Shown here in pieces: positions 14,134-21,611 of a stretch of DNA of 64,000 bases. Under the pieces are notes generated by a model. That model was given only the letters and a program-made list of their open reading frames with translations, did not search any database and was not told the DNA's origin. This stretch comes from Corallococcus macrosporus DSM 14697. GTDB lineage: Bacteria; Myxococcota; Myxococcia; Myxococcales; Myxococcaceae. How positions within the stretch are numbered: the stretch's first letter is position 1; each line of letters opens with the position of its first letter. A program made the translations under genes and the position numbers. The stretch is from the NCBI RefSeq assembly GCF_002305895.1, contig NZ_CP022203.1, positions 3,326,501 through 3,390,500 on the forward strand. Direction: 5' to 3'.

Positions 14134-15588
14134 TCACGGCGGCGACGCGGTCCGGGTGACGTGTACCGGCGGCCGCCGCTGGGCCCAGGGCCGCGCCTGC
14201 TCGAGCTGCCCGGCGAGCCGGAACAGCGTGGCCTCGTCGGCATACCGGCCGGCGAACTGGACGCCGATGGGCAGGCCTTCCTCGCTCCAGTGCAGCGGCA
14301 CCGACATGGCGGGCTGCCCGGTGACGTTGAACACCGCGGTGAAGGGGCAGTGGCCGAAGGCGTGGTCGTACCACTCGCGCGCCGTGCGGGGCGCGTTGGC
14401 GTCCAGCAGGCCCAGCGGGAAGGGCGGGGCGGCCACCGTGGGTGACAGGAGCACGTCGTACTGCTGGAAGAACCGCCCCACCTGCCTCGACACGAGGTTG
14501 AACACGCCCAGCGCCCGCATCAGCTCCGTGGCCGTCAGCGTCTGTCCGTGGCGCACCACCGCCCAGGTGGTGGCTTCGAGCGAATCCGGCTCGGCCTCGC
14601 GCCCGGAGAGGTGGCTGGCCATCGCCACGAGGGACGCCATGGTCGCGGACCAGGCGGTGGTGATGGCCTCGTGCAACAGGAGGCCGTCATGCGGGAGCGC
14701 GTCTTCGGTGACGTCGTGGCCCAGCTCCTCGCACAGGCGCGCCGCCCGCCGCGCGGCCTCGATGCACTCCGGGCTCACCGCTCCCCCCATGGGCGAGGCC
14801 GTCATCAGCGCGATGCGCAGCCGGCCCGGCGCGCGGCTCACCTCCTCCAGATACGGGCGCCGCGGGGGCGGCGCGAAGTAGGGGTCGCCGGCCTCCGGGC
14901 CCTGGGTCGCGTCCAGGGCCGCCGCGCTGTCGCGCACGGAGCGTGACAGCACATGCTCGATGCCCATGCCGCAGATGATGTCGGCCGCGTCAGGCCCCAG
15001 CGAGTTGCGGCCCCGGGTGGGCTTGAGCCCGAAGACGCCGCAGAGGGAGGCGGGGATGCGCAGGGAGCCGCCGCCGTCGTTGCCATGCGCCACCGGCACG
15101 ATGCCCGCCGCCACCGCCGCCGCGGAGCCGCCGCTGGAGCCGCCCGGGCTGCGGCCCACATCCCACGGGTTGCGCGTGGGCCCGTGGAGCCGCGGCTCCG
15201 TGCTGGCGTTGTTGCCAAACTCGGGGGTGTTCGTCCGGCCCAGCAGCACCAGCCCCGCGCGCCGGTAGCGCGCCATCAACGCGCTGTCATGGGGGAACAC
15301 CGTCCCCTGGGTCAGCCGGCTCCCGAAGTCCGAGGGGACGCCCGCGGCGTGGACGCCAATGTCCTTGATGAGGAAGGGCACGCCCCGGAAGGGGCCGTCC
15401 GGGAGGCCCTGCTCCAGCGCCTCGCGCGCCTGGGCGTCGCGCGTGTCGATGACGGCGTTCAGCTCCGGGTTGACGCGGTGGATGGCCTCCACCGCCACCC
15501 GGAGCAGCGCCTCGGGGGAGACCTCCTTCCGACGCACCAGCTCCGCCAACCCCACTGCGTCACAGCGGCTGTAGTCATCCAGGTTCAT
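14134..15588 (-). CDS. amidase signature family hydrolase, last gene of lanthipeptide operon
   Basis: 484-residue amidase-signature enzyme that hydrolyses carboxamides through a Ser-cisSer-Lys triad. All three are visible: Lys75 in FLIKDIG, Ser151 in [15 protein letters not shown] and the nucleophile Ser175 in [12 protein letters not shown]. Length and motif spacing match the family. It starts 18 nt after the lanT stop with a GAGGGA site, so it is almost certainly cotranscribed with the lanthipeptide genes. It could tailor or trim the peptide, confer self-protection or simply share the promoter; the sequence cannot separate these. No signal peptide is seen, so it is cytoplasmic. Confidence 0.9.
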
Positions 15589-15606
15589 GAATCCCTCACA
15601 GGCGCC

Positions 15607-21300: not shown

Positions 21301-21611
21301 TCATGCACCCACGCGGGCGCGGCTTCAGGCGAGGTGCAGGTCGCGCCAGCGGGCGCCTCCAGCAGCGCGAGCAGCGCCGCCTCCGTCAGCCCGGAGGCGA
21401 GCAATCTGCGTTGCCACCAATCCGCTTGTCCAAAGGGCTCCTGCCGGCGCCAGGTCTCCAATCGCTTGCGCGCAGCGGCGGAGGTGTCGCACCGCGCCGT
21501 GGCTGCGAAAGGTGCTCGTTCGGAGAGTGGGGCGGCTCGGGCCCAGCGCGCGGTCCGGGATGGCGCGTGAGCGCCTGGCGCCGCCTCGTCTTGCCTCTGC
21601 GTGAGTTCCAC
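18297..21611 (-). CDS. lanM: class II lanthipeptide synthetase LanM
   Basis: 1104-residue bifunctional enzyme that phosphorylates and dehydrates core Ser/Thr, then adds Cys to form thioether rings. The dehydratase domain (DUF4135, about 170-560) shows YKPRSLG (304-310), TDLHFENL (379-386) and DVET (397-400), the kinase-like catalytic loop. The C-terminal LanC-like cyclase (about 700-1080) has the zinc ligands Cys952 in WCTGAPG and Cys997-His998 in LCHGDLGN, plus HGAAG-type repeats. Start is GTG at 21611 with GAGAGGA just upstream. It is the first gene of the operon and its stop overlaps the lanA start. All catalytic motifs look intact. Confidence 0.95.
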   Translation of the reverse strand: MELTQRQDEAAPGAHAPSRTARWARAAPLSERAPFAATARCDTSAAARKRLETWRRQEPFGQADWWQRRLLASGLTEAALLALLEAPAGATCTSPEAAPAWVHELEQAYAEPLRAPVTWPERAEGPDRSAFLPLVEPLVARAVTRLGNALKDLQRAAPGLDFEPAGLVSSMLGHLPQVLAPVLGRAMVVELHAAQLEARLAGDTPEARFQDFTRRLRQPQVALDILERYPVLARCAALRIADWEANGLELLQRLARDASLLWQRFNGGQTPGALVEARGGYSDPHRGGQGVFILRFESGLRIVYKPRSLGAEAGLQQLLTWLNARGATPVMKGAEALDQGAYGWMEYVAPAPCASTEEVRRFYERQGAYVALMHALDGTDLHFENLIAAGEHPVLVDVETLFHPLSGTRTLRDAEHAVEAPPVSVIRSGLLPQQFWGTRTKAGVDLSGLGARAGQLTPQAYLVTAERGTDRMRFERRPVALPGANNLPRLEGESAPVLAYRDALAEGFTRMYGLLLEHREALLAEDGPLAAFARVPMRVLFRNTAVYGALLHESHHPHALADGLERQRFFDHLWRAVVASPDFEALVPLEIAQLERGDLPYFTARVDSKDLEAGSGQRLPDFFQETGLARVRRRLEGLSPEDQTRQRWVLERSLDALLLSTRTVPRPTYAFQEHTPPGLRDALLAEARRAGERLLPLAFERGGEAHWLGLDAGDGGWRLGSPGADVFQGRAGIALALGYLGDVTQDARFTRLARATLRTQARLLGAEPGSVVGLGILNGWGGILYALTHLGVLWNDDALLDEAAGHARRLRPLVEKDTVLDVGAGTAGCLLALLVLGEHRPSDALWATVDACGQRLLETATPQARGSAWLCEAAGNRYLAGMAHGAAGVALALLRLFGRTGDARLRDAALAGMEYERGLYAPEERNWPDLRAGAKEAAATPEGAEHFLWAWCTGAPGIGLARLSGLPFVDDAAVREEIAIARDSTLARGFGRNHGLCHGDLGNADFLLQAAATLGDARLQARVDGVAGGILRGITERGYLFGLQGSTETPGMMVGLAGIAYGLARLARPDRVPSLLTVDSPRIVRGEGLGTPDGRPSSRIQEQS

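Follow-up and report, generated by a model that had tools for sequence, protein, structure and literature searches.

A 64,000-nucleotide stretch of the Corallococcus macrosporus DSM 14697 genome (the window) contains what its sequence indicates is very probably a functional class II lanthipeptide cluster, belonging to the family reported as MXAN_2853-2858 in Myxococcus xanthus. The synthetase gene lanM precedes the precursor gene lanA, an order that is a clade-wide trait and not an oddity of one genome, and the two genes overlap; strict coupling of their expression is not supported.

The cluster and its published relatives

The order, strand and coordinates of the five ORFs given in the initial annotation were all reproduced (table 1). 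The lanM stop overlaps the lanA start in an ATGA (18297-18300), as had been claimed, and a second such overlap joins the stub to lanT (17802-17805). The genome is a single contig of 8,973,512 bases, and its named relatives are Myxococcus.

Table 1. Features of the lanthipeptide locus and its flanks (window positions).
Feature	Position	Strand	Description
Five-gene block	14134-21611	-	order lanM, lanA, 71-aa ORF, lanT, amidase
Candidate lanM promoter	21684-21712	-	TTGACA, 17 nt, TTACCT; 72 nt 5' of lanM GTG
lanM	18297-21611	-	class II lanthionine synthetase, 1104 aa, GTG start, Shine-Dalgarno GAGAGGA
lanM last 20 codons	18300-18359	-	unusually low synonymous variation; contain lanA AGGAG at 18306-18310
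lanA	18088-18300	-	precursor, 70 aa, ATGA overlap with lanM stop
Intercistronic hairpin 3' of lanA	18046-18077	-	11-bp stem GGGGGACTGGC/GCCAGTCCCCC, no T run
71-aa stub	17802-18017	-	HlyD-family adaptor N-terminus: cytoplasmic segment and transmembrane helix
lanT	15607-17805	-	C39 peptidase-ABC exporter, 732 aa, ATGA overlap with stub
Amidase-signature ORF	14134-15588	-	PF01425; chromosomal neighbour, outside cluster

Three hallmarks of a class II system are present in the sequence: a LanM with dehydratase and cyclase domains, a LanA with a leader, and a C39-ABC exporter. LanM scored 943 bits against the curated model TIGR03897 (cut-off 304 bits), with matches to PF13575 (DUF4135 dehydratase, 417 bits) and PF05147 (LanC-like cyclase, 198 bits). 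Its nearest solved structure is LicM2 (6st5, E 9e-120), with which the D-H-EN / D-ETLF motifs and the WC-G and CHG zinc-ligand motifs line up, and dN/dS values of 0.21-0.45 against the window gene point to purifying selection. LanA scored 72.5 bits against TIGR03898, the model for mersacidin/lichenicidin-type leaders (cut-off 23.5 bits). LanT has C39 (PF03412), ABC membrane (PF00664) and ATPase (PF00005) domains, matches PCAT1 (4ry2) over residues 23-719, retains the catalytic motifs DCGAAC, HYVVFE and DPDQG on direct reading, and has dN/dS values of 0.14-0.32. The curated models and aligned motifs thus agree with the initial annotation that the LanM pathway is intact and its leader of the mersacidin/lichenicidin type. 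A comparison with precursors of that type had also been proposed there; LanA passed the leader model and LicM2 was the nearest synthetase structure. By analogy with these families, LanM guided by the leader would dehydrate Ser/Thr residues and form thioether rings around the core, and the C39 domain of LanT would cleave after GA/GG and export the product.

The locus resembles mersacidin/lichenicidin-type systems in its TIGR03898 leader, GA/GG site, LanM and C39 LanT, but differs in lacking a CTxTxEC core motif, in placing lanM first, and in having no recognised adjoining immunity or regulator gene among those flanking the block. Leader residues 1-50 end in GA and are followed by the predicted core DSCERFGSYHCTPCPPYVCL, which has two Ser, one Thr and four Cys; with four Cys against three Ser/Thr, one Cys is unaccounted for. 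Cores of the cluster family share [ST]xxCTPCPPxxC, and in 18 aligned precursors CTPCPP is invariant and a Cys near the end is constant. CTxTxEC is the mersacidin-type ring motif; it is absent from the aligned cores, which therefore lack the feature by which a lipid II binder would be recognised. With one lanA only, the window cluster also does not have the make-up of a two-peptide lantibiotic.

The initial annotation expected a new product. A class II lantibiotic cluster of the same make-up has, however, been published for M. xanthus DK1622, with M. fulvus HW-1 in the same table (Singh and Sareen 2014, PMC3951391), so the cluster family is not new. That cluster, MXAN_2853-2858, comprises the LanM MXAN_2857, precursors MXAN_2855 and 2856, the LanT MXAN_2853 and hypothetical proteins MXAN_2854 and 2858; LanT, a small hypothetical protein, LanAs and LanM stand in the same order as in the window, although M. 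xanthus has two lanA genes and the window a single, fusion-like one. From this order we infer that MXAN_2854 corresponds to the HlyD stub. The comparison with DK1622 rests on the published gene order; sequences were compared through M. xanthus AM003, whose locus (L037, L121) is syntenic with the window and 86%, 94% and 83% identical in LanM, LanT and stub, respectively. A SNF2-like gene, lanM, lanA, stub and lanT with the same flanks are found in AM003 and others. No described product was found for the CTPCPP core family in the open-access literature searched.

Gene order and precursor copies

We surveyed the bacterial family (96 genomes searched with LanA, 92 with DUF4135), pairing each LanM to a nearby LanA. 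The cluster family is present in 11 of the 27 Myxococcus genomes: ten others share the lanM-lanA(1-3)-stub-lanT block of the window, two of them with a LanM identity of only about 62%. Across the survey pairs, lanA lies downstream of lanM in 23 clusters and upstream in 29. This split follows the LanM tree exactly: the lanM-first clusters make up all 23 clusters of one clade, on one side of a single branch (SH-aLRT 100), while all 29 elsewhere are lanA-first. The clade extends to three clusters outside the window's genus. The expectation that lanA usually comes first thus holds in this family for the 29 LanMs outside one clade, and the lanM-first order most simply arose once, to judge by the tree. 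The ATGA overlap is retained in 11 of the 23 lanM-first clusters; in the others lanM and lanA stand roughly 85-95 nt apart. The clade, with one to three lanA copies and with or without the overlap, provides a comparison set for how precursor is dosed when lanM comes first. The literature searched offered nothing decisive on lanM-first order or on a stem-loop 3' of lanA.

Orthologous clusters in relatives carry one to three lanA copies, and alignment of these genes revealed a composite structure for the single copy in the window. Its 5' part, start and upstream sequence match first-copy lanAs, while its 3' part, including the core and the downstream hairpin, is of the last-copy type. The window lanA resembles a fusion between an ancestral first copy and an ancestral last copy, most simply explained by a deletion between two tandem copies. 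Precursor copies are gained and lost across lineages; decaying lanA core remnants after the last lanA in L042 and L041 fit such birth and death. In a different family of Myxococcota, a lanA-first arrangement has a lanA with a related core, SALCSPCPPASCF, so this core type probably predates the switch to lanM-first order.

Several other loci came to light during the survey. Another of the lanM-first clusters of this clade lies in the window's own genome, at 7.62 Mb (L071, G000:C1:7619500-7631500); its core differs, and no LanT homologue was found next to it. A close Myxococcus relative retains a decayed lanM-lanA pair, in which a lanA-like stretch comes after a C-terminal piece of LanM (L133:4241-4992; residues 921-1081, 57% identity). 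In another genus, three genomes (G003, G004 and G007) contain 9 to 14 LanA leaders of the mersacidin type; many of these are far from any LanM, resembling the dispersed precursors of prochlorosin systems. A record named Comamonas sp. KCTC 72670 (L066, BNCN01000003.1) carries the Myxococcus cluster in Myxococcus synteny and looks mislabelled.

Expression of lanA relative to lanM

Upstream of lanM, alignment revealed a footprint, TTGAC[AT]..AAA..AAATG..TACC, that is kept in 11 loci while its surroundings diverge. It has a single match within the window and none in shuffled sequence. The TTGACA-N17-TTACCT it contains is the best candidate for the lanM promoter and probably serves as such; it emerged from the alignment, a strict sigma-70 scan of positions 17700-22000 having returned no promoter-like site. 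Transcription from here would run through lanM, lanA, the stub and lanT as one operon. In M. xanthus, MXAN2857, 2856 and 2855 have been described as a likely operon (Petters et al. 2012, PMC3509222). In the same microarray study, two lantibiotic genes were among those reduced in sgmT and digR mutants, while MXAN2857 (lanM) was not significantly affected in both. These data suggest that lanA and lanM transcripts can differ in M. xanthus, although the unaffected lanM may reflect weak signal rather than separate control.

The initial annotation reasoned that the ATGA overlap would tie lanA to the level of LanM. Several observations argue against this: lanA carries a strong Shine-Dalgarno, AGGAG, shortly before its own ATG; the start codon of lanM is GTG; a conserved hairpin follows lanA; and the lanA ribosome-binding site is predicted to be about as accessible where lanA overlaps lanM as where it does not. 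No Shine-Dalgarno is evident before the stub or lanT. Ribosomes finishing lanM could restart at the overlapping lanA ATG, but fresh initiation at the lanA Shine-Dalgarno would also be allowed, so that lanA need not be limited to the LanM level. Strict coupling is not supported, while partial coupling remains compatible with these features. We also considered a lanA ribosome-binding site opened only by the lanM ribosome; with predicted accessibility alike whether or not the genes overlap, this was not supported.

A stronger version would have the ATGA truly couple the two genes, giving enzyme and substrate at about one to one and a product that acts as a low-dose signal rather than an antibiotic. 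The overlap is indeed kept in 11 loci, including L045 with a LanM only 57% identical, and no obvious immunity transporter gene lies among those directly flanking the block. We regard this as improbable, since 12 of the 23 clusters in the lanM-first clade lack the overlap, the same Shine-Dalgarno serves sister lanAs 230-550 nt further downstream, the ribosome-binding site is not predicted to be specially hidden in structure, multiple lanA copies in relatives raise the dose, and lanA and lanM differ in the M. xanthus data (PMC3509222).

Restart after lanM together with fresh initiation at lanA is the reading we favour. The hairpin after lanA, one of two compensating signals proposed in the initial annotation, is real: its stem has a folding z of -2.7 in the window, and each of the ten loci folded, the window among them, has a strong stem at this place. 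In the more distant L041, L043 and L044 both arms have changed together and still pair. Folding z falls below -1 in nine of the ten segments, L040 (z 0.16) being the exception. Placed behind the last lanA, the hairpin probably serves to protect or terminate lanA messages and to reduce read-through into the stub and lanT.

The second proposed signal, an internal start for lanA, fared less clearly. None of 11 fourfold sites in the last 20 codons of lanM varies, compared with 215 of 563 (38%) elsewhere (Fisher p = 0.005), a test based on few sites in seven close genomes. Such low synonymous variation fits a ribosome-binding site or another signal here and supports the proposal indirectly; a sigma-70-like site, on the other hand, was not found by the scan. 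It is possible, though on balance doubtful, that a promoter near the lanM 3' end drives lanA separately. Synonymous variation is lowest at just this place and the M. xanthus mutants show a difference between lanA and lanM (PMC3509222), but the constraint may serve only the ribosome-binding site and mRNA structure, and the region is less conserved in L040-L044. Nor did a search for DigR-like TAATC-N14-GATTA sites help: the best matches had 3-5 mismatches both in the lanM 3' end, where none was close, and upstream of lanM, where they were no better than shuffles.

The truncated adaptor and the amidase neighbour

The ORF between lanA and lanT had been called an adaptor stub, and this description proved apt. 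It matches the N-termini of many full-length HlyD-like ORFs across the bacterial family (E 1e-9 to 1e-14), and it aligns with the HlyD proteins adjoining the nearest LanT paralogues. These paralogues (63-65% identity) have an adaptor of 270-314 aa directly upstream, and the one tested contains HlyD-type domains. In the Myxococcus loci L080, L117 and L119, the adaptor shares the PSIFRK(E/Q)A motif and the position of the transmembrane helix with the stub and likewise sits directly upstream of LanT, but it has a full periplasmic part (314 aa), whereas the ORF in the window is only 71 aa long: it ends soon after the transmembrane helix, has no Pfam match, and thus lacks the periplasmic lipoyl/barrel domains. 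The stub is therefore a shortened HlyD adaptor, conserved in this form, whose counterparts next to the nearest LanT paralogues are full length. We also considered the ORF as a second precursor; this was rejected, as it has no leader model match and aligns with HlyD.

Conservation of the stub is uneven. Mean identity is 83% in the cytoplasmic part and 59% in the transmembrane part, and dN/dS against the window gene is 0.35-0.71, below one but the highest among the four genes compared (the others being LanM, LanT and the amidase), so that the stub is under the weakest constraint. This ranking, together with the clear truncation and the ATGA shared with lanT, suits a non-functional hlyD remnant kept only through coupled lanT translation, and the overlap does make a passive role in lanT translation possible. 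We consider such a remnant a real possibility, if short of an even chance; against it, the ten aligned loci, with identities as low as 55%, all keep a length of 70-74 aa, and the aligned cytoplasmic part has 19 invariant residues among its first 25. Some role for the stub is likely, judging from its sequence. More tentatively, and at rather long reach, it could be a working mini-adaptor, whose cytoplasmic and membrane parts the C39 exporter needs in order to assemble or to handle its substrate, with the periplasmic conduit either given up or supplied by another adaptor. A conserved truncated HlyD raises the question of how lanthipeptides are exported from Gram-negative bacteria.

The initial annotation counted the amidase as the last gene of the operon. 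An orthologue, 65-90% identical, is found in 25 of the 27 Myxococcus genomes, whether or not they carry the cluster; where lanM is absent, the amidase adjoins the same SNF2-like or P-domain genes, and the clusters of L039 and L121 have no amidase beside them. On this distribution the amidase is a genus-wide neighbour and not a cluster gene. It lies on the same strand and adjoins lanT in most clusters, as a tailoring enzyme of the lanthipeptide might, but its presence among the same chromosomal neighbours regardless of the cluster, and its absence from two clusters, make that role highly implausible. In L036, L043 and L044, but not in the window, a GMC-type oxidoreductase-like gene (L036:10763-12340 in L036) separates lanM from the SNF2-like gene.
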